Positions 5,877 to 21,010 of a stretch of DNA of 21,133 nt are shown here, piece by piece. The stretch is from the IMG/VR virus record IMGVR_UViG_3300032282_000704, positions 1 through 21,133 of that record. One strand, 5' to 3'. The stretch is from a virus. Each line of letters opens with the position of its first letter. The first letter of the stretch is position 1. The position numbers and the translations under genes are program-made. Under the pieces are notes generated by a model, which made no database searches, had not been told where the DNA came from, and worked only from the letters and a program-made list of their open reading frames with translations.

Positions 5877-8654
5877 TTATTTTGCGAAGAAAATACCTAA
5901 AATTTGATTTAGGGGTGCGAATGCACCTGTTAATTTGTAAGTGTTGCCACCATATACAAATACTAGCCCCTCATTTGGTACAATTTTATCAAACCCACCT
6001 AACGCTTGCATTCTGCTCAATTCTAATTTAAGTTTTGCAATCTTTTTAGGGTCACCACTTGCTTTAACATCTGCTATTGTACTTTCCAAACGAGCTAACA
6101 TTTGTTTAGTAGCTTGTTTTGGGTTTGCGGTTAATACCGAATCCATAAATGATAATACTTCCGCACCAACTCCTAAAAATATCTCCTCAAATCTCATTAA
6201 GTTTTGTTTTGATATTTTAGCTTGGTCATTCTTATCAGTCGAATCTGCCCATTTTTGTATTTTAGGGTCTTTTATATCTGCTATACGGAAACTCTTGTCA
6301 CCAAAAGCCCATCTTTTAACTAATCCTATTTTTTGCTGTGCATCTAATCCCTTTGCATTCTTATTTACAAAGTTTGTCCACCATCCTTGATGATAATCAG
6401 CCACACCATCCTTATCACTCAATGCAAATTCAGATTGTAATTTAGTTATCATTCCTAAATACTTACCTTGCAATTTAGAAAGGTCTTCTGATTTAGGTAA
6501 TTTTTGCATTGGAGGTCCCTGAATTGTATATTTGGATTGAATGTGTGCATTTACTTGCTTAATCATACCACCTAATACTTTAGCTGCGTCTTGGTTTTCA
6601 CCAATCACTGTACCATCTTTATCATATTCAAATGTACCATGAAATACTAAAAGTGGTTGATTGTATGGAATTACATTTACTGATGTTGGGTATATTACTT
6701 CCAAATTCATAAAACATGCTCCATCTTTAAATACTTTTTTTCTTTGTGGTTCTGATAGAGCTCCTATTGCTTTTGACAAATCTTGCATTGCAAAATTATA
6801 TGCATCGGTTAATCCACCTCTACCAGCAAACTTATCTGCTACTTGTCCTATTGTCATAGCACCCTCACCTTTATTCTTTAGATGTGATTTGTTACGAGCC
6901 GCAACTAATCTACCATTTACCCAACTAATTGCTAATGCTTGGCCATCGGTTTTTTCTCTTACAGTTTCTAAATCACCATTAAGTGCTTTGGTTACAATAT
7001 TTTTTAAATCACCAAATGTAAGATTCATTTCAATATCAAATGGATGATTCATATGTCCATAAGCACCACCTTCTGTTAATAACCCTTCAGTAATATTAAT
7101 TCTTTCATCCGTATTTACATCATTGTCCCATTTGTTAGGATATACATCCGTAGTACCAATAACATTTTTATCAGAAGCTTCATTTGGTTTTGTAAATCCG
7201 TATTTTAGTGTACGATTGTATTTGTGAACACTATCATCGTGATTATCTATTGGTAATTTTTGGTCTACTGCTTTTTTCTTTTCTCTTTCAGATGGAACTT
7301 CATCTTTTGTTGTCCAATCTGGTAATCCTTGTAAATAATATTGCGCTTTATCATAATCATCCCAATTTTTATTCCATTGATATCCAGTCACACTATTACC
7401 ATCGTTTGGTATAGACCAAATTCCACTTTCTTCTTTTATTATATTTTCGTTTTCAATAGTTGCTAACTTATCGTAGTATTTTAAATCTTCCCATAAATGG
7501 TCCATAGCTATTTCAGCTGCATAGTGCACATCGGTTGTATGTTCCATTTCAACTTTAATACCTTGTAATAATTTTTTCTTAAGATATTCAGTTGCAAATT
7601 GTTTTTGGTCATAGTATCCTTTAGAATCCCATCTCTTAGCCAAATCAATTAGGGTTTTACCTTTTGCCAAACCACCAGGTATTCTATCCTTTTGAACTGC
7701 TATCTCATCAACTTCTTCATATTCCGAATCCCAATTCTCATCAATATCTTCATATCCACTCATTCCTTTGTTGTTAAGTTTCTTACTATTTTTCTTAACA
7801 TCTTTGGAATCAGGTGCTCCATTAATATATCCACCCGGTAAACTTAAACCAACACCAGCTCCACCAGGAAATCCCATTTCTTTTAAATTCTCTTTTTTAG
7901 GTATTCTAAATGTCACTGCTTTCTTACCATTAATTGTTGGCATTCCCCATTCATCTTTACCAATATCCTTAACTAATACTTTTTTGTTTTTGAATTTACC
8001 CATTAATAGAGTATCGCCAACTTTTACATTTAAAGTAATTTCTTCATTAATACATTCTTTAAGTTTTTTCAACTTAAGAGTAATCATTTTGAATATTTGG
8101 TCATCAAACTTTGGATATGCTTTTGTAAAATTCTTTTTTCTTTCAGATTCACTACCAGCACTTAACCAATAACGAACATCAGTACCACTAATAGGATTTG
8201 ATTCGGATGGTGCTGCATAAACATATCCTCTATCTAAATAAGGTTCGGTTACCTTACCTTTATATGGAGTAAAGTATTTGCCACCTAAACGATTTTCATC
8301 CTTCTCACCCACCACAACTATTAAACCAGTTGTATCTTCATTATATTTGTTTAAAATTTCAGATGGAGCATATGGATTTTTAACATTAACAATTTTAGAT
8401 GCTGGTATCCCAAACATCTTTGTCATTATTGCTTTCTTTTCGTTAAAATTAAAAGGAGATTTATTTGAATCGGTAACATTAGAAGTTCCGATATAAACAC
8501 TATCAGACCCGAATTTCTTTACAAGGTTTTGATATGTTGCAAAGTGGCCCTTATGAAAAGGTTGAAAGCGGCCTGAATAGACAACTATTTGTTTGTCTAT
8601 CTGAGCCGCTTCCAATAATATTGATTCTACTAAAAAATTTGATAATTCACTCAT
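5877..8654 (-). CDS. Multidomain protein: NadM-like nucleotidyltransferase, beta domain, DUF5661-like domain and ATP-dependent ligase-like domain
   Basis: A 925-residue protein. Residues 22-200 are a cytidylyltransferase/NadM-type domain: GRFQPFHKGH (28-37, HxGH motif) and ISGTDVR (155-161, the ISSTxxR-type motif). Residues 208-254 form a small Gly/Lys-rich beta domain (VKVGDTLLMGKFKNKK... then GxPTINGKK). Residues 328-400 resemble DUF5661 (IKVEMEHTTD, AAEIAMDHLWED, YYDKL). From about 529 the protein resembles covalent nucleotidyltransferases (RNA/DNA ligases): conserved GGAYGHMNHPFD, motif I K568-T-D-G571, an acidic motif III-like FMNLEVIYP (648-656), motif IV-like EGLVF (895-899) and motif V-like YKLTG (906-910). 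Such a domain would join or adenylylate nucleic acid; the real substrate is unknown. Sites fitting T4 prohead protease occur at E15|A16, E523|G524 and E528|G529. The gene lies 34 bases after a coiled-coil gene and before the packaging genes, so a virion cargo role is possible but unproven. Confidence 0.88.
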   Translation of the reverse strand: MSELSNFLVESILLEAAQIDKQIVVYSGRFQPFHKGHFATYQNLVKKFGSDSVYIGTSNVTDSNKSPFNFNEKKAIMTKMFGIPASKIVNVKNPYAPSEILNKYNEDTTGLIVVVGEKDENRLGGKYFTPYKGKVTEPYLDRGYVYAAPSESNPISGTDVRYWLSAGSESERKKNFTKAYPKFDDQIFKMITLKLKKLKECINEEITLNVKVGDTLLMGKFKNKKVLVKDIGKDEWGMPTINGKKAVTFRIPKKENLKEMGFPGGAGVGLSLPGGYINGAPDSKDVKKNSKKLNNKGMSGYEDIDENWDSEYEEVDEIAVQKDRIPGGLAKGKTLIDLAKRWDSKGYYDQKQFATEYLKKKLLQGIKVEMEHTTDVHYAAEIAMDHLWEDLKYYDKLATIENENIIKEESGIWSIPNDGNSVTGYQWNKNWDDYDKAQYYLQGLPDWTTKDEVPSEREKKKAVDQKLPIDNHDDSVHKYNRTLKYGFTKPNEASDKNVIGTTDVYPNKWDNDVNTDERINITEGLLTEGGAYGHMNHPFDIEMNLTFGDLKNIVTKALNGDLETVREKTDGQALAISWVNGRLVAARNKSHLKNKGEGAMTIGQVADKFAGRGGLTDAYNFAMQDLSKAIGALSEPQRKKVFKDGACFMNLEVIYPTSVNVIPYNQPLLVFHGTFEYDKDGTVIGENQDAAKVLGGMIKQVNAHIQSKYTIQGPPMQKLPKSEDLSKLQGKYLGMITKLQSEFALSDKDGVADYHQGWWTNFVNKNAKGLDAQQKIGLVKRWAFGDKSFRIADIKDPKIQKWADSTDKNDQAKISKQNLMRFEEIFLGVGAEVLSFMDSVLTANPKQATKQMLARLESTIADVKASGDPKKIAKLKLELSRMQALGGFDKIVPNEGLVFVYGGNTYKLTGAFAPLNQILGIFFAK

Positions 8655-9152: not shown

Positions 9153-10301
9153 CTATAAGAATTTTTCCAATTCTTTTATCACCTGTTGGGATGATATTGA
9201 TTTGGTGCATTCAAATTGTCTATCAGTTCCTTTGTGGTCAGGACACCAATTCCAATCTCCAGCGTCTAATCTTAATCTATTAAAACACCCCTCACATTTA
9301 CCTTTTGGAGCCGAAATTCTAATACAATCTTCCATCTCTGCCCAATCATATGAGAATCCACTAATTAATACAGTAGGAACATTCAATGCCCAACTCAACC
9401 AACTCAATCCACTACCAATACCTATGAATGCTTTGGATTTTTTCATCTCATCCATAACCAACTCCAAAGGACCATCTGGGTGTTTGATTATTCCTTTTGG
9501 TAATTTGTTTCCCATATAGTCATCATTCTCTTTAGATACTAATTTAACTGTATATCCTTTATTATTTAACCAATCCACCACATCTTGCCATCCAGTTGGA
9601 TTATTCCAAAATTTAGATTGTGCAGTTCCAAATACACCAATACAAACTTGCTTTAAATGTGGATTTGGTGTTATATTTCTTTCTTTTAATTTTGGTTTTA
9701 CTTCTTTAAATTCTAATCCTAAAATATCAGATGCCATTTTTTGCATTGTTTGCTCTCTAAAATTATTTGGATTTTTTAATAAATTAACTTTACCATCATT
9801 ATCATAAAATAAACCAATAGCGTACATCGAATAAAGATTATCAACATTATTACCAGGATTTACAAATTCTATTTCTGGATATTGCTCCTTAAGCATATCA
9901 TTCATAAATGTAGATGCTATCATTTTACATTTATGTTTTTTTCTAAATTCTTCAACATATGGAAACCAAGCTAATGAATCACCCAATGCTTTGGAATCCA
10001 ATGCTATATAAATTCTTTTATCTTCTGCATCAAATAAATGCTCATTCCAAAGTTTTCCATTTTCATATACTCTAACTTTCCATTCTATAAAATATTCAAA
10101 ATTACATTTACACCAACAATTATTATTAATAGTACTTTGATATAATATTTCTCCAGTTTTGTTATTAATAAATTCTATTTTATATTCTGCACTTTTATTT
10201 CCTTTAATTTCAGCATAAGGTCCTCTAACAAAATGAAGAATTAGTTTATTTTGAACTTCAACTATATTATTTTTATTCTTTTTTAAATTATCGTAAATCA
10301 T
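9153..10301 (-). CDS. BAHT-family glycosyltransferase (autotransporter O-heptosyltransferase-like, TibC/Aah type)
   Basis: A 382-residue enzyme of the GT9-like BAHT family, which in bacteria transfers heptose from ADP-heptose to Ser/Thr of beta-solenoid autotransporters. An N-terminal beta domain (about 15-90) ends in YFIEWKVRVYENGKLW. Then come ALDSKALGDSLAWFPYVEEF (100-119), with the GD aspartate D108 at the place of the catalytic Asp in TibC, and YPEIEF. The C-terminal half has FWNNPTGWQDVVDWL, GLSWLSWAL, then PTVLISGFS. The end holds C336-x2-C339, C353 in WCPDHKGT and C365 in RQFECTKSI, the four-cysteine iron site of the family. I chose the ATG at 10301, which overlaps the previous stop as TAATG and gives 382 residues; a TTG three codons upstream (10310) is the alternative. 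The acceptor and sugar donor are not shown by the sequence; no heptose biosynthesis gene lies in the window. Confidence 0.9.
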   Translation of the reverse strand: MIYDNLKKNKNNIVEVQNKLILHFVRGPYAEIKGNKSAEYKIEFINNKTGEILYQSTINNNCWCKCNFEYFIEWKVRVYENGKLWNEHLFDAEDKRIYIALDSKALGDSLAWFPYVEEFRKKHKCKMIASTFMNDMLKEQYPEIEFVNPGNNVDNLYSMYAIGLFYDNDGKVNLLKNPNNFREQTMQKMASDILGLEFKEVKPKLKERNITPNPHLKQVCIGVFGTAQSKFWNNPTGWQDVVDWLNNKGYTVKLVSKENDDYMGNKLPKGIIKHPDGPLELVMDEMKKSKAFIGIGSGLSWLSWALNVPTVLISGFSYDWAEMEDCIRISAPKGKCEGCFNRLRLDAGDWNWCPDHKGTDRQFECTKSISSQQVIKELEKFL

Positions 10302-12475
10302 TAACTCCAAGTTTTAACTGTTAAATCCAAAAGAGAAAATCCTTCGGCTTGCTTACTATACACTTTATTTGTAGTATATCTAGGTCTTGGATGATTTGCA
10401 AACACATGATTATACCAAAGGTCACCAACATCCCACCCGCAATCTTCAATTCTATCTAACCACCATTGCTTTTCTCTATTTGGAATTAAATAACAATGTG
10501 CTAAATCTTGATTAAATGCTGTCTTTGAAAACATTTCATCAATTTTTGTTTTTTCTCTTGATGGATTATCTGCAAATGAAATAAATGGTACGGCATCTCT
10601 TTCTGATAAAAAGCATGCTCTATGTACTATTTCAACAAATTCTTCCAAACCAGTATAGATAAATGCATCAGCTTCAAATATCAAAGTGTAATCATAATTT
10701 TCAGTATCCATTGTTTCTAAAGCCATTCTGTGTGCCATATAACATCCATAGTGCCTACCTGTCATCCATCCCAAACCAGCACCAGGGTATAATTCTCCCG
10801 GCTTATTATCTTTACTTATATGTTCAGGTCTCCTACAATTTTCCGCAGGTGCCAATCCTTCATATGGTTTATTAATTATTTGTTGATAATCTATTCCGTA
10901 TTTTGATAATTGTTTTAATGATTGAATACTAACCATCTCTCTCATATCATCTGGTCTAGTTAATAAATGCTTAACTTGAATACGGGGTTTTGTTCTATAC
11001 CAATTTCTAAAACCTCTATTAAATTGTTTATAAAAGAATTCGTCTGCAGCCTGAGTAACACCAGGAAAGAAACTTCCACCATAATCATCACCACTAATAA
11101 TACCACCTGGTCTTACTTTATTATACCATATTTTTATATCATTGGTAACATCTTCATATGAATGACCTGCATCTAGCATTATATAATCAATACTACCATT
11201 TGAAAATTGATTAGCTGCATTGTGTGATGTATCTTTTATAATATTAAATGAACCATAATTATTAGAAAGAACTGTATTATCTATAAATTCATAAAATACA
11301 TCTCCATTAAATGAACCTACTATATTTTGATGCAATTCTTCATCATCAGTTCCTTTAAAAGTATCTATTGTTATAAAATTAATATTCTTTTTTGATTCTT
11401 TAATTTTACTTGCTAAATAGTTTGTAGATTTTCCAAGCCAAGTCCCAACTTCAACAAAAGTAGAATCAAACGGAGCTTTATCAACAACATCATCATATAA
11501 ATCTGAATATGAAAACCAACCAGGTATTTCATTAAATTCAGGATTAAGTTTTTCTAATATAATTCTTTTTGTTAATTTTAAATCATTATCTATATAAGTT
11601 ACCAATGAATTATTATCATAAGTATCCAAATAAGTGTGTAATTTTCTAAATATAGAAGGCATCTTAAATGAAAGTGCTTCTTTAACTGATAATGGATTTA
11701 GTTCTAATGTAGATGAAAAATAAAACATATCAGAAGCTGCATAAAAAGTATCTACATCAGTTCTCTCTCCCCATATAACACAATTTTCAGGTTTATGTTT
11801 CATTAAAGGTCCCCAATAGTGTTCAAAGTTTCCAGCTTGATTTCCTACAAAATGAAATTTAATTTTGTATTTTTCCAATTGTCTTGCTATTGCAAATATT
11901 TCACCTTGATTTTTACCAGGTGCAAATAATCCAACATTTAATACATGTTTCCAATCGGATTCAAATCCCAATTCTTTTTGTGCTTCTTTTTTATCAAATG
12001 CATATTCTTCAATAGGATATTCCCATATATCAGTATCGACACCAGTATCAATAAATTTTTGTCTGCTCCATTCTGATACTAAAATATATCTATCAGGATG
12101 ATAAACTATATCTTCTGGATTTGTAAACGAACCATGTGTTGATGCTACAATAAAATATTTTCTTTTATCTGAAAATATTCTGTCTAATATTGGCGTAGAT
12201 AAATCAAATTGTGGAATCTCTTGAAAGTGAATAATATCAGGTTTAAATAAATTAATAATATCAATTATTTCCGATTTATTTTCTCCTAATGTGTGAACCT
12301 TAACTAAAGATTTTATTCTGTTTTTTTGAACAACAAAAGCATTTCCTCCACTGTTGTTTATTTCAACAACTTCAATTTCAAAATCTTTTATGAATTCTTT
12401 TACCTGTTTATATAGGTATTGTGGTTGTCCGCCAGTAGATAAGTGTGGCGCAATATAGAGTAACTTTTTCTTCAT
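10301..12475 (-). CDS. Three-domain sugar-modifying enzyme: GT4 glycosyltransferase, SAM methyltransferase, GT-A-like transferase
   Basis: A 724-residue fusion. Residues 1-310 are a GT4 (GT-B fold) glycosyltransferase: GGQPQYL (15-21), NVGLFAPGKNQGE (180-192) and an EX7E motif E258...E266 in ELNPLSVKEALSF. Residues about 318-485 are a class I SAM-dependent methyltransferase of the Methyltransf_24 kind: FVEVGTWLGKST (340-351, glycine-rich loop), ITIDTFKG (368-375) and DYIMLDAGHSYEDV (430-443), then RPGGIISGDDY. Residues about 510-724 resemble a GT-A fold enzyme near family GT25: GLGWMTGRHYGCYMAHRMAL (567-586) and the metal-binding-like E601-A-D603 in YTLIFEADAFI. Together these could build a short methylated glycan. 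The last base of its stop codon is shared with the ATG of the BAHT-like gene, so both form one unit. A Bacteroidetes-type promoter lies directly before the ATG at 12475. The target molecule is unknown. Confidence 0.9.
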   Translation of the reverse strand: MKKKLLYIAPHLSTGGQPQYLYKQVKEFIKDFEIEVVEINNSGGNAFVVQKNRIKSLVKVHTLGENKSEIIDIINLFKPDIIHFQEIPQFDLSTPILDRIFSDKRKYFIVASTHGSFTNPEDIVYHPDRYILVSEWSRQKFIDTGVDTDIWEYPIEEYAFDKKEAQKELGFESDWKHVLNVGLFAPGKNQGEIFAIARQLEKYKIKFHFVGNQAGNFEHYWGPLMKHKPENCVIWGERTDVDTFYAASDMFYFSSTLELNPLSVKEALSFKMPSIFRKLHTYLDTYDNNSLVTYIDNDLKLTKRIILEKLNPEFNEIPGWFSYSDLYDDVVDKAPFDSTFVEVGTWLGKSTNYLASKIKESKKNINFITIDTFKGTDDEELHQNIVGSFNGDVFYEFIDNTVLSNNYGSFNIIKDTSHNAANQFSNGSIDYIMLDAGHSYEDVTNDIKIWYNKVRPGGIISGDDYGGSFFPGVTQAADEFFYKQFNRGFRNWYRTKPRIQVKHLLTRPDDMREMVSIQSLKQLSKYGIDYQQIINKPYEGLAPAENCRRPEHISKDNKPGELYPGAGLGWMTGRHYGCYMAHRMALETMDTENYDYTLIFEADAFIYTGLEEFVEIVHRACFLSERDAVPFISFADNPSREKTKIDEMFSKTAFNQDLAHCYLIPNREKQWWLDRIEDCGWDVGDLWYNHVFANHPRPRYTTNKVYSKQAEGFSLLDLTVKTWS

Positions 12476-12838: not shown

Positions 12839-13102
12839 TTAGTTTCCGTATGGAGAATCTCCTAAAATTTCAGAATTCCATGTAGATTTTAATTCATCTA
12901 ATGTAGATATATTACTTATATCAATATCAGTTGCATCTCTTAGTGCCTGTTTAGTTGCTCCTATTTGGGCTGCTGTTTCAGAATCTCCCCTCTCTAATGC
13001 TTTCATAAAATTAACATCAAGTGGTTTAAAAAGTTCTTCTCTTTTACCCCTTATCTTATTTTTATGTATTTCTAATGCTTTATTTAAATCAATTCGTATC
13101 AT
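12839..13102 (-). CDS. Small tail protein, possible fibre-assembly or XkdW-like protein
   Basis: An 87-residue protein. Residues 30-80 follow a pattern I associate with small phage tail proteins and tail-assembly chaperones (XkdW/DUF4376-like): a helix ALERGDSETAAQIGATKQAL, then RDATDID, then a short hinge and TLDELKSTW followed by ILGDSPYGN. The N-terminal part (LNKALEIHKNKIRGKREELF) is a basic helix, as in proteins that begin by binding a fibre tip. It starts four bases after the stop of the 93-residue gene, with no promoter between, so it is co-expressed with the giant fibre and its neighbour. A chaperone role for the fibre is suggested only by this position and the weak pattern. Confidence 0.75.
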   Translation of the reverse strand: MIRIDLNKALEIHKNKIRGKREELFKPLDVNFMKALERGDSETAAQIGATKQALRDATDIDISNISTLDELKSTWNSEILGDSPYGN

Positions 13103-13106
13103 AATA

Positions 13107-13388
13107 TTAATAATTTTCAGTATGTTGTGCTTCTTCTAATGCTTTTCTATGAAGTTCATCCATACCATAATCAGTTGGATTAGACCAATCAGGATCATAT
13201 GCGGTATGAAATACTTTATCATAATATTCATACTCAACCAGTATAAATGGCCATCCAGCCGGTACAGTTCGTTTTGCTATCATTACAGCTGTTTTAAAAT
13301 CATCCGCAAAAATACTTGTTGAACCTAACATTATTTTTGTTCCTAAACTTTGTTTACGAGAAGGAAATATACTTACATATCTTGCCAT
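13107..13388 (-). CDS. Small tail-associated protein of unknown function
   Basis: A 93-residue protein that I do not recognise confidently. It begins MARYVSIFPSRKQSLGTKIM; the middle AGWPFILVEYEYYDKVFHTA (64-83) followed by YDPDW resembles a pattern (rPFrIVd...DR.Fr.AWe.Df) seen in small proteins beside tail-fibre genes of marine phages. It ends acidic (ALEEAQHTENY). No signal peptide or membrane segment is seen. It follows the giant fibre gene by 11 bases and precedes the 87-residue gene by 4 bases, so the three form one transcription unit. The A-rich leader AAAAAATAAAT has no Shine-Dalgarno. A role at the fibre or baseplate is inferred from position only. Confidence 0.75.
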   Translation of the reverse strand: MARYVSIFPSRKQSLGTKIMLGSTSIFADDFKTAVMIAKRTVPAGWPFILVEYEYYDKVFHTAYDPDWSNPTDYGMDELHRKALEEAQHTENY

Positions 13389-13399
13389 ATATTTATTTT

Positions 13400-16300
13400 T
13401 TATTTATAAACTAATATATTAATTCTACTACCACTACTATCTTCATTACTTAATTCTATTTTAAAACTAGTGTTAAATGTATCAAACACTCTTACTATTG
13501 TTGGTACTGTCCCAGTCCCTGTTGTTGTACCACCCGCAACAACTACACTATAAAATCCAACAGGTCCATTTGGGTCAAACCATGTTGATGAATCTTGTAA
13601 TGCTTCTACAAAGAAAACTTGCCATGTATTTGTTGTTACATAAGTTATCTTCTCTATATTCATACAATACGGCCACCAATATTCACTATAAGTACCGGAA
13701 CAATTTGTTGTTGAATCCGGCTCAAACATAGCATATGCTCTTAAAATTTGGAAAGCTCTATTATATCCACCAAAAATATAAGATGTCATAAAGTTACCAC
13801 CAGCTGCTCTATTTGAGCGAGGATATGATGCATTATTAATATAAATTCTTTGCATTGAATTATGCCACTCAATAGCATTTTGATTTAATAATAGGAATGT
13901 TCCACCAATATGTCCAATTGTTCTTCTATCTTGAAATGAATTATTTTTTCTTGTATAAACTCCTGAACCAGGATATGTTTCTACATCTGGAAAATTAGTT
14001 AAATCCAATGAACTTAAAAAATCTGGTCTAGTTAAAAAATATCTATCAGTATCTTGTCCAACATTAATACCAACCTGATTAAGTACAGTAGATGATACTG
14101 ATGCATTATATGCTATATCTATTGTAGGCATATAATAATCAATAGTCATATAGTTATCATAATCTAAATTGAAAACTATATATTGAATACTAACAGTATA
14201 TACTTGACCAGCTACCATATTTATACCAGACATATACAATACTACATCAGTAGGTGGTGAGCTCGGATTAATTTGTTCATAAAAGTTTCCACCAAAATCT
14301 GCATCAAATACAGGAGTATCTACATATTCAGCTCCACCAAATCCAGTATACACACTATTACCACTACTATCTCTTACATAAAGTCTCATTTCTACATAAG
14401 GACCATAAGTTTTTGTTCCACTTATCCAAGTAGTTTTTCTTAAAGAAGTTACTGGGAATTTAAATGTCATTTCATATGCTGCCGTTAATGGTGCTGTGAT
14501 ATTTCTATCCATATTCCATGTAGGCGCATATGGCCATGTACCAGATCCCGGTACTTGCAAATAACCGTTAGAACCCTCTCCCGTTAATGTACCATTTTGA
14601 TATGTTGCTGTTCCAGATGCGTATCCTGAAATTGTTAGTATCCCAGATGTTGAGTTTAATGGGTCTGCGGTAGATGTAGTTCCATAATCTAATAATACTT
14701 TAGTTACATTATTAGTATCCTTTAAACGAATAATTCCAGATATAACTAAATCACTATCATCCCAATAAAGATACTTACCACCAACAGTAGATGTTGCATC
14801 TCCTAATCTAAATTGTCCTAAATTATTTAAAAAATATCCTTTACCAGCAGTTAAAGATGTTGCGTTTACACTTCTAAGATATCCCGTATAAGTTCCATCA
14901 GTACCAATAACTAAACCTCTAGTAATTGTTGCATCTTGCGCCAATAAGATATCAGTTGCTACTGAACTAAATGTTGCTCCAAATGTTGACCAATCAGATA
15001 CACCCGGAGTCCCCCAAGTTGCTAATCCACTTTTAGATACATTATTTGCTAAATAGTATGTTCCAGTAACTGCTGGGTATCTAACTACATCTCTACGAGT
15101 TCCATCAGCTGTATGAAAATATGCAGTTCCAGAATCATAATTTCCTCTAAACACCACACCAGGGCCAGGTGAACCATCAGCACCATTATTACCATTAAGA
15201 CCCGATGTACCATTTGCCCCATCTGCACCCGATGTTCCATTTGCTCCCGGTGCACCGGCAGCTGCCGCAACAGTCCAAGGACCTGCGCCGGGATATCCTG
15301 TTGATGAATTTGTATTATTTGTTGATGTGTGTGAAGTTGATGAAGTACATTGCCAACTCTGTCCTCCATAAGTTACAACATCATTTGCGTAATAAACAGT
15401 TGATGATGCCCAAGCTCCTCTTAATGTTCCAGCGTTTTGACCGGGAGCAACTTGATTTATAGAACCAACAATTGTTAATGTATCACCATCCCACTTCAAT
15501 GCCCTATTACCATCTGATGATTTAATTGAAAATCTACCAGTTGTTCCAGCTGCTCCATTTTCATAAATACCCAAAAATATACCCGGCTTATCATATCCAA
15601 TAACACCAGTAGAAGTTTGGTCACCACTTTTACCAGCAGTACCAGTCTGTCCCATAGCCATATACGGGTCATTGCGTCCTCCCGATAATACAATATTTGC
15701 AAATGCCCCATTACCATCTTTAGTACCAATATTTAATGTATTCTTTACATATGATTCATCAAATATTGCAATCTTAGCTGCTATAAAGAAATCTTGAGTT
15801 CCTAAATATTCCCAATGTGGATTATTAGGGTCATTACTAGGAGTTTGCGCGCCAACTATATAAGCGTGATTCTTATCGTATGTTGCAGGTCCACTACCAC
15901 TTTTTGCTGCATAATATGTTGTTGGGTTTCCGTTAGGTGGATATATTACCGCATCTCTACGATAATTTGTTGTTTCAACACTTCCTATGTAATCTATTGA
16001 ATTTAACCAATTACCTCTCATTACAACACCTGGTCCAGTCTTACCTTCAAATTGAACTGAAAAGGATTGTGTTTTGTATAATTTTTGTCTACCTTCGCAA
16101 TCTATTTCATATACAATTACTGCTGTTTGGTTTGTTTCAGGACTACTCCAATTTTCAATACCAGATGTATATGCTCTACCTTCCGCATCAACGGGTAAGA
16201 TACCATTAAGTAATAATCCACCACCCAAAGTTATGTGTTCTGATATATCACTTACTTTAACGACTGCTTGTTCTTTATAACCATTAACTCCATATGCATC

Positions 16301-19300
16301 ACGTTGTGCATTTGTAAAAGAAGTTACACAAGTTAATTTAGTATCTCCCCTAACTGCTCTTATTTTTGCAAAAGTTGCATCTAAACTAAATTGTCCAGAT
16401 ACTTTGTAAACTGCTGCTGCACTTTCATTTTCTAACTGTGCCGAATATGCCGCTGGTGGTGTGAATTGTACTGATATTGATTGTGTTACAAATTGTGTTT
16501 GTCTAGGAAGTGGATATCCATATGGATTTGTTTGAATTAAATATCCTCCTTCAAAATCTATCTTATATACAATTTCACCTGATTTATTTATAGCAGGGTC
16601 TTTCCATAGAGCTATGTTTCCAATTTGTGCAGGTGATGCGTCTGGAAATTTAGTGTCTGCCATTGTAATCCAAGAGGATTTTGTATATATAGATGCCGAT
16701 GAATATCCTAAAATACCAATAGGTTCGTTATTATAATCTAAATCACTTGGGGAAGATGGTCCTGGTAATATACCAGTTCCCCAGTTTGTTAATTGCTGAA
16801 TACCATTAAAGGTAGTAATTTTCATACCAGTTCCATTAGATGAACTAGTCCATAAATCAGCAGTTATTACACAATTATCATTTGTTGATGATAGTTTATA
16901 AGAATCAGCTCCAGCCTTTATACCAGATATTGTTAATTGAGCTTCTGCTCTGGATAATAAGGGATTTACAGTTGGTGATGTTTCGTTTCCATCAACAAGT
17001 TTAATTTTAAATGTTTTTATTGAATCCGGAGCTATATCATTATACAAAACAGTAGGAAGTGTAAATGTTACTGGGTTTGAACCAACATCTCCTGTAAACG
17101 GAGTTTCCGCAGATTCAGCACCATCCGGTGCAACATCATATAAATACAAAAATACTTTGTCAGCTGATGAAGTTGTATTAAATGCAGTTGCTGATAATAT
17201 TATTGGTTCTTGTGATGCCAATGATACTCTACCATTTCTATCATAATTTACAGTATATGAAGATGCTTTAAAATCTACTTTACGAGCTTTTGCAGCATCT
17301 ACATTTTTTGTAAATGTTTGAGTTCTAGTATATATTGATGATGTTGGTAAATGACCAGCTCCTAATGCGTAGGGATATACTTGAATTGTATAAAGTGCAC
17401 TTGCAGAAACATACGGATAATCAAATCTATCATAATTCATTCTTCCTGTTAATCCTGTTTTAGATGAACTCATTGATTGTGAGAAAGAACCTGTTAGGAT
17501 TGTAAAAATTCCATTAGATACACTTGGTTGTATTGAATTAATTTTATATGTACCTTTTCTAGCATCAGCGCTTGCAAACGATTCAGTTGTTATTAATTTT
17601 AAAAAATCATCTCCCTCTTTTACTTGTATTGTAGTATTTGCAGAAGAATATCCGGCCGGTGTAACATATCCAACTTCATCGGCCGTTAATGTAACTGCAG
17701 CTGGTGTTATTAGTATTTGTATTGGCGGGGCCCCTTCTAATACTTTTGTATAGTTTACAACTACACTAGCAGTGTAAATTGAAGATGTATAATATGGATG
17801 AATAATTAATGGATATGTAATACTTCCACTTAATTCATTCATATTTGATGATGCACTTACTATCATAGAAGCCGTATATTGAGTTCCGTATGATGATGTA
17901 AAATGAACATTACCAGCAGTAATATTAGTATCTATTATAGATGATGTTGATGCATTTAGTATATAAAATGTACCATGTGTATATAAATTATTTTCAACAT
18001 TTGCACTTGAACTAAACGCAAGATATTTAGAACCTTGCTTTAATTTAATATCAGTTATAGATGGTTTATAATCATTTACAATACCTCTTGAATTTGCTCC
18101 AAGTGTTACTGACATTGGATTTACTTCAAATACAATACTTTCATCACCAGGTTTACCTTCTGGTGTAATTGTAAATGTCTTATCAATACTAACTGATGCT
18201 GAAGTCCAAGGTTCGGTATATGTAAATGTTAATGTTAAATTTTTTGTTTGTTGTAATGGACTTCTAACATATAATGATTCAGTACCCTCTGGCTTTTGTG
18301 AAGGTATTAAAATTTTATTATCATCAATAGCAGTTACAGTTAATGTTGAGTCTAAACTTTGTGTATTATAATATAACCAATATTCAGGAACCCAATCTTT
18401 GTTTATTGACATTGATGGGTATATTTCAAACGATGCAGTAACTGCTTCTTGGATACCTGCTGCGGTTGCTCTTTTATTAAATGATGCTGTTGCAAATCCA
18501 AACACAGGTTTAAATTGAGTATCTGTTCTTGGGTTTATTGTAAATGAATCTGCGTTATATGTTACAATACCACTATCCAATCCATCTTGCAAATCCTCCA
18601 ATATAATAGATGCCAATACAGAAGAAGATGCTTCATATGCAAATTTACCAGCTGCAGATGATGATGGCATTAAATAAACTACCCTTCTAAAATCTATCGA
18701 ATCTCTAGTAAATGTTGCGTTATAATCAATTTCTTTTGTACCCAGAGAACCAGTAGTTAAACCCGGAATCATATTACTAGCAGTAACATATGATAAGTTT
18801 ACAAATTTTTCAGTACCATCCGCTGATCGTGATATTATATGTAATTGAATATTTCCATAATTCTTTAAAGAACCTTTTTGTAATAATATATCGTTGATAC
18901 CATCTATTCTTACTGCTTGTATTTCTAATGAAGCGGTACTACTATTTCTAATTTGAGTTCCTCTATAAGGTCTAATAATATGATTTACACCACCAAATCC
19001 ATCTAATATTTTATATATGTTAATTGTATCGGTATATCCCTCTACCTCTCCAGTTAATTTTACCAATTGAACATTTATATCACTTCTAGAACCAGTAAAA
19101 TTAGAAACTGTCATACGAACATTATCAGTACCAATTCCCAATAGTAAACCAGGAAATTGTTGACCAGAACCAGTATATGCTCCCGATGCAGATAAGTCAT
19201 TACCAAAAAAATCAAATGATTGAGATGTATAATGAACTGAACCTGTTAATAAAGTTTTTTGTTCATCGATTGTTATAATTGTTGGTGGTACTGGGTTTGA

Positions 19301-21010
19301 ACCAGAATCAAATTGAAATCCTCCCAATGATGGAACTAATTTTAATCCTTTTCTAATTGTTTGTAAATTACCACCATCAAATGTTTTAGTTTCTTCAACC
19401 AATACAGGAATGTAATTATTATTTATATCATAAAACTCAAAACGATAAATAAATGTTTCAACAGGCAAACTTCTTGGAACTGATTGTATGAATGTTATTT
19501 CATCGGGAGAAAATGCTGTTTCTTGAGATGCTTTTAAACTTACATCCGATATATGCCACCCTGTTCCTTTTACATCGAAATATAATCTAGCATTATCTAT
19601 TTGCTCAGCTTTTATATTTTCAGTAATATTTTGTTTTTGAAGTAAAGCGTTTTGGGTTTCTAATGTTGTTATACTTTGTTTTACTTGTACAGTAGTTGGT
19701 GTGCCATTTACAACAGATTGTTTAGAACCACTTAAATACGCTTCTATATATTCATACGCAAATCCTACACTTTCTTTTCTTATATTAAAATCTAAAGTGT
19801 ATTCTATATTTTCTGTTATGTTTAGTGATTTTGTTGTATAGAATGATGTCAATACATTACTACTATTTAACTTAACAGAATCAAATAAAAATATTTGGTC
19901 AAATGCTGTAACTAAACTATTTGATGAAGTTACCCAATATGATTTAAAATTAGTAGAATCAAATATTCCATAATTTTCTTGGTTTTTTGTTGTAGATTCT
20001 AAATCAATTAATAATTCATTTGATTCCAATTGTATTTCTTGCACAAATTGAAAATCAGATAAATCCGATTGTGATTTTCTAAATATTTTAACCCTAGCAC
20101 AATCACCAATAAATGTTGTTAAATCTGCTAATGTTATTTTAGCAAAAGAACCAGTCAATGCCGTTTTTAAATTATCTACACCTTCTGAATAATTAAAAGA
20201 TGCCGTATATCCTATTTCTGATAAATTTACAACTAATCCATTACTATTTGTATATGGTGGTTGTACTATAATTTCTCTAGTGTTTATAATGCTTGATACC
20301 AATGGATTGTATGAGGTATCATCAAATGTTAAATAAGTACCAACAACAGAAGCTGTCCAAAATGTATCATCTGTTGTTGTTAATAGATACGATGCTGGCG
20401 ATGTATAGTTTGCTAAAGATGCACTTACGGAAGGTGCTAATGGAGTACCATTAATATAACCTTTTTGTATTTTTGGCGCAACAACATTTGAAAATATTGG
20501 TTTAACTACTTCAATTATGCTTACATTTGGTCTTCTATAAAATCTTACTTTATCTTCATTTGATAGTAATCTATTTACCTTAAAGCTTCTCTCCCATTTT
20601 ACATTATAAACACCTTTCCAATCATCTGGTATATCTTTCGTAACCCCATCGGTATCTTTGAATGTTTTTAATTCACCAAGAATAGTTATTTTTGCTTCGC
20701 CTATTGGAGTATCTTCGTATATATAAACTGCAATTGGTTTAGATAATCCCTCATAATATTCAGGAACTCCATTACCAGGTTCATAATAAATTGGGTCTCC
20801 ATTAACATCTAAAATTTGTATTTTAATTTCAGTTGTTTCCTTTAGGTATTCAGAGCCCTCTATTAAAAATCCGTTTTTACCACCAGTAAAAGCTTCTTTA
20901 AATTCAGTAATTCTAAAATAATCCGAATTTGGATTAGTATCATTAACAAGAGTTTGAAATGATGTTAGAGTTTGATTTAAATTATCAGCATATTTTTTGA
21001 TTCTTGCCAT
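13400..21010 (-). CDS. Giant modular tail fibre / adhesin (2536 residues)
   Basis: Residues 1-170 hold a tail-type N-terminus (YFRITEFKEAFTGGKNGFLI, then GSEYL, EYYEGLSKPIAVYIYEDTP), common from memory in fibre or baseplate proteins of marine contractile-tail phages, presumably the attachment end. A long Ser/Thr-rich beta region follows, with Ig-like repeats starting near 955, 1094 and 1244 (pattern VxPxxVTLxA...GxV...). Modules opening GPGVVxRGN start at 1659 and 1949. Between them lie a CBM5/12-like module (about 1862-1914, W-x5-Y...DVVTYGGQSWQC) and a collagen-like Gly-X-Y stalk (1919-1951). Fibre repeats of the type LxWDGxxLxIxGxI occur around 1840 and 2090. The C-terminal part (about 2100-2536) is aromatic-rich and could bind receptors. 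No membrane segment or peptidase motif is seen. It is the first gene after the divergent region and heads the tail block. Host binding is inferred; the N-terminal start is the ATG at 21010. Confidence 0.88.
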   Translation of the reverse strand: MARIKKYADNLNQTLTSFQTLVNDTNPNSDYFRITEFKEAFTGGKNGFLIEGSEYLKETTEIKIQILDVNGDPIYYEPGNGVPEYYEGLSKPIAVYIYEDTPIGEAKITILGELKTFKDTDGVTKDIPDDWKGVYNVKWERSFKVNRLLSNEDKVRFYRRPNVSIIEVVKPIFSNVVAPKIQKGYINGTPLAPSVSASLANYTSPASYLLTTTDDTFWTASVVGTYLTFDDTSYNPLVSSIINTREIIVQPPYTNSNGLVVNLSEIGYTASFNYSEGVDNLKTALTGSFAKITLADLTTFIGDCARVKIFRKSQSDLSDFQFVQEIQLESNELLIDLESTTKNQENYGIFDSTNFKSYWVTSSNSLVTAFDQIFLFDSVKLNSSNVLTSFYTTKSLNITENIEYTLDFNIRKESVGFAYEYIEAYLSGSKQSVVNGTPTTVQVKQSITTLETQNALLQKQNITENIKAEQIDNARLYFDVKGTGWHISDVSLKASQETAFSPDEITFIQSVPRSLPVETFIYRFEFYDINNNYIPVLVEETKTFDGGNLQTIRKGLKLVPSLGGFQFDSGSNPVPPTIITIDEQKTLLTGSVHYTSQSFDFFGNDLSASGAYTGSGQQFPGLLLGIGTDNVRMTVSNFTGSRSDINVQLVKLTGEVEGYTDTINIYKILDGFGGVNHIIRPYRGTQIRNSSTASLEIQAVRIDGINDILLQKGSLKNYGNIQLHIISRSADGTEKFVNLSYVTASNMIPGLTTGSLGTKEIDYNATFTRDSIDFRRVVYLMPSSSAAGKFAYEASSSVLASIILEDLQDGLDSGIVTYNADSFTINPRTDTQFKPVFGFATASFNKRATAAGIQEAVTASFEIYPSMSINKDWVPEYWLYYNTQSLDSTLTVTAIDDNKILIPSQKPEGTESLYVRSPLQQTKNLTLTFTYTEPWTSASVSIDKTFTITPEGKPGDESIVFEVNPMSVTLGANSRGIVNDYKPSITDIKLKQGSKYLAFSSSANVENNLYTHGTFYILNASTSSIIDTNITAGNVHFTSSYGTQYTASMIVSASSNMNELSGSITYPLIIHPYYTSSIYTASVVVNYTKVLEGAPPIQILITPAAVTLTADEVGYVTPAGYSSANTTIQVKEGDDFLKLITTESFASADARKGTYKINSIQPSVSNGIFTILTGSFSQSMSSSKTGLTGRMNYDRFDYPYVSASALYTIQVYPYALGAGHLPTSSIYTRTQTFTKNVDAAKARKVDFKASSYTVNYDRNGRVSLASQEPIILSATAFNTTSSADKVFLYLYDVAPDGAESAETPFTGDVGSNPVTFTLPTVLYNDIAPDSIKTFKIKLVDGNETSPTVNPLLSRAEAQLTISGIKAGADSYKLSSTNDNCVITADLWTSSSNGTGMKITTFNGIQQLTNWGTGILPGPSSPSDLDYNNEPIGILGYSSASIYTKSSWITMADTKFPDASPAQIGNIALWKDPAINKSGEIVYKIDFEGGYLIQTNPYGYPLPRQTQFVTQSISVQFTPPAAYSAQLENESAAAVYKVSGQFSLDATFAKIRAVRGDTKLTCVTSFTNAQRDAYGVNGYKEQAVVKVSDISEHITLGGGLLLNGILPVDAEGRAYTSGIENWSSPETNQTAVIVYEIDCEGRQKLYKTQSFSVQFEGKTGPGVVMRGNWLNSIDYIGSVETTNYRRDAVIYPPNGNPTTYYAAKSGSGPATYDKNHAYIVGAQTPSNDPNNPHWEYLGTQDFFIAAKIAIFDESYVKNTLNIGTKDGNGAFANIVLSGGRNDPYMAMGQTGTAGKSGDQTSTGVIGYDKPGIFLGIYENGAAGTTGRFSIKSSDGNRALKWDGDTLTIVGSINQVAPGQNAGTLRGAWASSTVYYANDVVTYGGQSWQCTSSTSHTSTNNTNSSTGYPGAGPWTVAAAAGAPGANGTSGADGANGTSGLNGNNGADGSPGPGVVFRGNYDSGTAYFHTADGTRRDVVRYPAVTGTYYLANNVSKSGLATWGTPGVSDWSTFGATFSSVATDILLAQDATITRGLVIGTDGTYTGYLRSVNATSLTAGKGYFLNNLGQFRLGDATSTVGGKYLYWDDSDLVISGIIRLKDTNNVTKVLLDYGTTSTADPLNSTSGILTISGYASGTATYQNGTLTGEGSNGYLQVPGSGTWPYAPTWNMDRNITAPLTAAYEMTFKFPVTSLRKTTWISGTKTYGPYVEMRLYVRDSSGNSVYTGFGGAEYVDTPVFDADFGGNFYEQINPSSPPTDVVLYMSGINMVAGQVYTVSIQYIVFNLDYDNYMTIDYYMPTIDIAYNASVSSTVLNQVGINVGQDTDRYFLTRPDFLSSLDLTNFPDVETYPGSGVYTRKNNSFQDRRTIGHIGGTFLLLNQNAIEWHNSMQRIYINNASYPRSNRAAGGNFMTSYIFGGYNRAFQILRAYAMFEPDSTTNCSGTYSEYWWPYCMNIEKITYVTTNTWQVFFVEALQDSSTWFDPNGPVGFYSVVVAGGTTTGTGTVPTIVRVFDTFNTSFKIELSNEDSSGSRINILVYK
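14975..15166 (-). repeat. GPGVVxRGN module, second copy, in the giant fibre
   Basis: Residues about 1949-2012 read GPGVVFRGNYDSGTAYFHTA, then RRDVVRYP, TYYLAN and a final tryptophan (2007). The order of motifs matches the first copy at 15800-16036. The copy begins inside the collagen-like tract, so stalk and module are directly joined. Confidence 0.7.
15158..15256 (-). repeat. Collagen-like Gly-X-Y tract in the giant fibre
   Basis: Eleven unbroken Gly-X-Y triplets (residues 1919-1951), beginning GAPGANGTSGADGANGTSG and ending GSPGPG. Codon-level repeats of GGT/GGA plus Asn/Thr/Ala give visible C-rich repeats on the plus strand. Short collagen tracts in phage fibres are known trimeric stalks or hinges, so this one probably marks a trimeric section. 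Confidence 0.85.
15269..15424 (-). repeat. CBM5/12-like carbohydrate-binding module in the giant fibre
   Basis: Residues about 1862-1914 read LRGAWASSTVYYANDVVTYG then GQSWQCTSS and, after an Asn/Ser/Thr-rich loop, PWTV. The spacing of aromatic residues (W, YY, DVV.Y.G..W.C, final W) fits small chitin- and polysaccharide-binding modules. It starts RGAW, echoing RGNW/RGNY of the flanking modules, so all three may share one fold. It could also be a purely structural domain. Confidence 0.55.
15800..16036 (-). repeat. GPGVVxRGN module, first copy, in the giant fibre
   Basis: Residues 1659-1737: GPGVVMRGNWLNSIDYIG, then RRDAVIYPPNG, TYYAAKSG and a closing WEYLG. It shares the GPGVV-RGN-(W/Y), RRD-V-YP and TYY-A order with the copy at 14975-15166. 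Confidence 0.7.

Follow-up and report, generated by a model that had tools for sequence, protein, structure and literature searches.

Tail fibers of other phages are known to exchange their tips together with chaperone genes: the shaft is conserved, and the tip and its helper genes are swapped. In cyanophage A-1(L), residues 111-215 of the short tail fiber gp33 constitute a ‘joint’ domain, which attaches to the wedges of the baseplate; the part of that account considered here describes a single copy near the baseplate and reports no RGN-coil-spike repeat of the kind presented below (PMC10966104). Cis13 from Anabaena, in the sections of its report drawn upon here, possesses an intermediary domain between the baseplate-binding and helical parts of the fiber trimer (PMC8894136). 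In crAss-like phages, whose hosts are Bacteroidota, tail proteins likewise carry carbohydrate-binding-like domains in tandem, the BACON repeats, but these form another domain family as far as the excerpted source goes, and the fiber examined here instead carries three diverged copies of its module at fixed positions (PMC6949934).

The window, namely the whole stretch of DNA analyzed, is a 21,133-base virus contig that encodes a 2536-aa tail fiber on its minus strand (13400..21010; open reading frame, with a match of residues 1782-1949 to PHROG 5073 ‘tail fiber protein’, E 3.9e-11). A Pfam scan also detects T4-like portal and terminase genes. The portal is of the gp20 type of T4-like myophages (PF07230, E 4.1e-65), and the source phage is a T4-related myophage, probably of Bacteroidota. 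Apart from the repeats discussed below, the shaft of this fiber contains at least two more internal repeats detected by self-BLAST (residues 931-1083/1074-1211 and 1461-1516/1613-1654).

A preliminary description of this DNA had noted a GPGVV-RGN motif occurring twice, with an RGAW-starting, CBM5/12-like module and a collagen tract of 11 triplets between the copies, and all of the motif positions it gave are correct. The first copy opens at residue 1659 of the fiber, with RRD at 1684 and TYY at 1698, and the second at residue 1949, with RRD at 1972 and TYY at 1984; the stretches 1659-1737 and 1949-2012 correspond to window positions 15800-16036 and 14975-15166 on the minus strand. Using the motif, profile searches and AlphaFold2 models, we delimit a first RGN module, M1 (residues 1659-1742; 15785..16036, minus), and a second, M3 (residues 1949-2015; 14966..15166, minus). 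Between them lie the RGAW module M2 (residues 1860-1916, with RGAW at 1864; 15263..15433, minus; identified through PF02839 and a family profile match to 1ed7) and a run of 11 Gly-X-Y triplets recognized by sequence pattern (residues 1919-1951; 15158..15256, minus). The triplet pattern is plain and is that of a collagen-like phage fiber segment, with a Pfam Collagen score of 14 bits, below the cut-off of 27.2. The suggestion that the GPG preceding M1 is the remnant of a longer stalk is rejected, given that exactly two triplets precede M1 in 29/29 copies. Before M3-type modules the number ranges from 0 to 13 in 89/90 copies and reaches 91 in the other (L101). The roughly 91 triplets ahead of the M3-type RGN module of L101 are mostly GTS/GTA.

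The two RGN modules align with a score of 82, compared to a mean of 27.9 and a maximum of 56 in 1000 shuffles, and their similarity is thus beyond chance. Plain pairwise scores do not convincingly place M2 with either copy (M1-M2 equalled in 196/1000 shuffles, M2-M3 in 39/1000), and the kinship of M2 to M1 and M3 therefore rests on profiles. An HMM grown from M3 alone gathers M1 (1661-1717), M2 (1862-1914), M3 (1951-2010) and the matching modules of relatives. Because iterative profile searches are prone to drift, a held-out test was run against decoys comprising shuffled modules and 347 natural fiber pieces, the best of which scores 9.4 bits. With the M3 profile, the scores of the seven M1 copies all lie between 17.3 and 35.0 bits and the median over the M2 copies is 11.8; the M1 profile detects M3 and does not place M2 above the decoys. 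Profile-profile comparison by hhalign gives probabilities of 98.0% for M3-M1, 96.3% for M3-M2 and 7.5% for M1-M2, indicating that M1 is tied to M2 via M3 and not directly. Taken with the fold matches described below, the profile searches and hhalign suggest that M1, M2 and M3 all derive from a single small beta module and have since diverged, with M2 nearest to CBM5/12. A PDB sequence search returns nothing for the M1-containing unit and weak matches only for the M3-containing unit (E 0.081).

The core pattern of the small module is common to CBM5/12 (PF02839; e.g. 1ed7). The RGN copies, unlike CBM5/12, enter through a GPG-V-V-RG strand, have a turn rich in Arg, sit in fibers rather than enzymes and lack a Pfam match in 25/26 modules scanned; the Pfam family CBM_5_12 matches 0/7 M1 and 1/19 M3-type members, and neither of the window's own copies. 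For M2, the scores fall on either side of the CBM_5_12 cut-off of 26.2, with 29.5 bits in a DNA-based scan and 24.1 bits in a whole-protein scan, and the M2 family profile matches the chitin-binding domain of chitinase A1 (1ed7, E 1e-4).

The repeat is longer than the preliminary description had it. Self-BLAST pairs residues 1655-1801 with 1945-2075 (E 2.8e-8), and hhalign of unit 1 (M1 and what follows) against unit 3 (M3 and what follows) yields 99.2-99.6% over 146-150 columns using 20 relatives. In each unit the RGN module leads into a conserved stretch resembling a coil and then into a beta segment, which closes with the pattern W-D-G-x-x-L-x-I-x-G. The true repeat is thus approximately 150-200 aa, an RGN module plus coil plus trimeric-spike-like segment, with one unit on each side of M2. 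In the window, the coil and beta spike-like segment after M1 spans residues 1743-1857 (15440..15784, minus; hhalign of the two units, and model) and that after M3 spans residues 2016-2100 (14711..14965, minus; T5 fiber match and breakpoints, both below). The second unit is shortened in the window and as long as the first in the relatives L051, L052, L059, L061 and L064. A literature search of open-access papers at the listing level found no account of such an RGN-coil-spike repeat.

AlphaFold2 models of unit 1 (pLDDT 72.7) and unit 3 (pLDDT 84.5) show identical strand order in their RGN parts. Unrelated folds, which the preliminary description had named as evidence against its reading, did not emerge; the strand order is shared, and the models match CBM5/12-like or fiber-joint domains with modest Z-scores. 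The M1 model aligns with residues 337-384 of the chitin de-N-acetylase 4nz4 (VIA Z 4.9, rmsd 2.1, 48 residues aligned) and the M3 model with residues 134-184 of the A-1(L) fiber (8kec; VIA Z 6.5, rmsd 1.6, 50 residues aligned) and residues 35-91 of Cis13 (7b5h; VIA Z 3.7). Independently, the M2 sequence profile matches residues 136-165 of the A-1(L) fiber and 38-66 of Cis13, such that M2 profile and M3 model converge on one region in each of two fiber proteins of solved structure, the gp33 joint domain (8ke9 and 8kec) and Cis13. The modeled segment after M1 resembles trimeric spikes (e.g. 6orj, Z 6.1), and that after M3 resembles the straight fiber of T5 pb4 and DT57C (7zn2 400-463, Z 6.5; 8hre 391-474, Z 6.1), a comparison covering this segment; that fiber belongs to a siphophage tail tip, unlike the myophage fiber of the window. 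Z values of 4.9-6.5 fall in the range of common arrangements, and Foldseek alone finds no match at E < 0.001 for either unit model; the modeled folds are therefore supportive and not decisive.

The explanation that we consider probable, though by no means certain, is a conserved shaft with two repeat units, M2 and a collagen rod, in which the small modules act as joints or spacers and beyond which the tip is swapped. Computation shows the repeats, their constant order, the links in sequence and fold between modules and the replacement of the tip beyond the last unit. The shaft ends in two long units, each an RGN module, a coil and a trimeric beta spike-like segment, and between the two lie M2, the CBM5/12-like third copy, and the collagen rod. 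The remainder is inference: in a trimer the small modules may serve as structural joints or spacers, and the conserved unit that precedes the tip may offer a stretch of homology as well as a matching trimer interface, through which recombination between phages could install another tip along with its helper genes. A joint is favored over a receptor binder by the matches to the A-1(L) joint domain and the Cis13 intermediary domain.

It is possible, if somewhat unlikely, that the RGN and CBM5/12-like modules are instead working sugar binders that make early, reversible glycan contacts along the shaft, with the tip providing final specificity. Such a role fits the resemblance of M2 to 1ed7 and to other CBM5/12-like enzyme stretches, the match of the M1 model to a chitin de-N-acetylase domain and, in the portion of the source used, the ancillary CBMs with which phages of lactic acid bacteria bind host glycans (PMC8540738). 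It fits less well with the near absence of CBM_5_12 matches among M1 and M3-type modules and with the solved fiber proteins, which, as far as the portions of their reports considered here describe, use the matching domain near the baseplate or within the shaft. The tryptophan that we take to be the chitin-binding residue of CBM5/12 is likewise not kept in M2: a rough pattern scan, itself weak evidence, finds tyrosine at this position in 18/28 sequences and does not place the other 10. The findings caution against taking each CBM-like module of a fiber for a receptor binder.

Relatives of the fiber were collected from viral contigs, from Cellulophaga, Bacteroides and crAss-like phage records and from 10 genome contigs (eight labeled Bacteroidota, two Oscillospiraceae or Ruminococcus MAGs). 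Queried singly, the M1 sequence recovers no relative in viral contigs or among 50,697 phage records; only an alignment-based search recovers relatives, in 35 loci. The de-duplicated set, restricted to loci contributing new module sequences, comprises 94 ORFs with 175 modules, 37 ORFs carrying one, 33 two and 24 three. In a smaller first set, counted after removal of repeated contigs and near-identical fibers, all three modules occur in 21/39 fibers, and the order is M1-M2-M3 in 21/21; module labels denote the best-scoring profile and agree with the order along the protein in these 21. Module gain and loss, a check that the preliminary description had proposed, is evident in fibers with only M1 (L031, L033, L036, L053-L057) or only M3 (L009, L010, L013, L062). 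A tree of 87 modules requires 8 label changes compared to a shuffled mean of 47.6, with M1, M2 and M3 clustering by position, in an alignment of 76 columns whose bootstrap has not settled and in which one M3-labeled row (L062) falls within the M1 clade. The copies consequently appear to be old and position-bound.

This clustering bears on the proposal that the copies are a recombination device, with M1 x M3 exchange gaining or losing the parts between them, which we regard as very improbable. M2 and M3 are indeed missing from some relatives and M1 from others, and in two pairs (L030/L059, L018/L041) the breakpoint lies between M1 and M3. However, the modules cluster by position, the single-module fibers occur in different shaft contexts and are not simple deletions of the window type, and no fused M1/M3 hybrid module is seen among relatives. 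The longest identical DNA run between M1 and M3 in the window is 11 bases, a length that shuffles also reach. The earlier idea that the copies recombine with each other through short repeats is rejected on the positional clustering and the lack of long shared DNA.

Sequence comparison among relatives points to the region beyond M3 instead. Mean pairwise identity among 24 M1-bearing fibers is 0.62 over the first 400 residues, 0.61 in M1, 0.67 in the M1-M2 segment, 0.44 in M2, 0.41 in M3, 0.37 just after M3 and 0.20-0.22 in the tip, where inclusion of the M1-only fibers L031, L036 and L053 lowers the M2 and M3 values. As judged from these sequences, it is mainly the C-terminal tip that is exchanged, and the RGN modules belong to the conserved shaft. 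The view of this part of the gene as modular, swap-prone and receptor-binding accordingly survives as to modularity, gain and loss, and recombination, tips being replaced in close relatives, and lacks support as to the RGN modules being the swapped receptor-binding part, since M1 and M3 are more conserved than the tip.

The exchangeable, presumed receptor-binding tip of the window spans residues 2106-2536 (13403..14695, minus), and among all fetched loci it has relatives in only two contigs, L008 (65.8% identity) and L096 (32% over the last 253 aa), the latter on an M3-only shaft. Identity between L008 and L035 is 98% in the fiber body and 19% in the tip; between L008 and the window the values are 53% for the body and 54% for the tip. 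At the DNA level, L008 and L035 are 96.3% identical up to L008:8424 (70 residues past M3), share no similarity to 10325 and are then 97.2% identical; similarity ends in their counterpart of the segment after M3. The replaced segment of L008 contains the tip and relatives of two small window genes, a 93-aa gene (71%; 13107..13388, minus) and an 87-aa gene (88%; 12839..13102, minus). The 93-aa gene travels with the tip, occurring only in L008 and L096, which both carry the window's tip, and is a candidate tip chaperone. The 87-aa gene, which matches phrog_20196 of unknown function (E 1.5e-25) and phrog_8746, tail fiber assembly (E 0.04), is present in L008, L096 and six further loci. That the exchange is only apparent, reflecting rapid point changes driven by the host or chimeras made in assembly, is scarcely credible. 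All recombinant contigs are metagenome assemblies, but the unalignable segment of L008 and L035 is flanked on either side by DNA of 96-97% identity, the tip of L008 turns up again in the window, an independent contig, and similar patterns occur in other families.

Among 32 pairs of fibers extending at least 250 residues beyond the last module, 5 are collinear to the fiber end and 27 break, although these pairs are not independent. Six breaks lie 70-167 residues past the last module (in two fiber families) and three 261-313 past it; nine lie 121-385 residues upstream of it and nine near the N-terminus, at residues 164-377. This spread indicates at least two preferred exchange boundaries, one at the close of the RGN unit and another behind the N-terminus, where the whole fiber is replaced. 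L034/L046, L033/L048, L036/L046 and others break after the N-terminal 164-221 residues, almost the entire fiber being replaced, although both the N-terminus and the genes 3' of the fiber stay similar. In comparison with the tip-exchanging phages mentioned at the outset, the boundary in several pairs of this group is the end of the RGN-coil-spike unit. For the large and little-studied group of fibers from environmental and gut Bacteroidota phages, this draws a definite line between the shaft, which stays fixed, and the tip, which can be exchanged, and should aid sequence-only prediction of the part that determines host range.

Large aquatic Bacteroidota phages encode four core glycosyltransferase groups whose function was left open in the portion of the report considered here, the main text of which does not contain the string ‘heptosyl’ (PMC12619734). 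Downstream of the window's fiber gene lie a gene for a 724-aa glycosyltransferase/methyltransferase-like protein (10301-12475, minus) and one for a predicted 385-aa TibC-like protein O-heptosyltransferase (9153-10310, minus). The latter scores 286 bits against TIGR04414, the NCBIfam equivalog for autotransporter O-heptosyltransferase (cut-off 200), and aligns to TibC (4rap) over 333 residues (E 2e-55). The four-cysteine pattern of the iron finger, described for TibC in the part of the source used here (PMC4358343), is found in 24/24 distinct relatives of the protein. Where the sequence continues for 5 kb or more beyond the fiber, all 24 M1-bearing loci have the 724-aa gene and 19 of the 24 have the TibC-like gene, in synteny; in the remaining five the stretch may end early, four holding a truncated 724-aa gene and L011 a cut frame. 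Among loci without M1, the TibC-like gene occurs in 2/32. Given that the M1-bearing fibers constitute one lineage, this association is a linkage and no proof of the predicted enzyme's target, and glycosylation of the fiber by the TibC-like enzyme is a guess; the linkage nevertheless raises the question of whether phages of this group glycosylate their own fibers. We consider it distinctly unlikely that the RGN-coil-spike unit is a general socket in Bacteroidota phage fibers, with tips and matched helpers exchanged even between unrelated shafts, and that in addition the fiber of the window's lineage is O-heptosylated by the phage's TibC-type enzyme. Elsewhere in the window, a 925-aa protein (5877-8654, minus) carries a cytidylyl/adenylyltransferase-like domain at its N-terminus.
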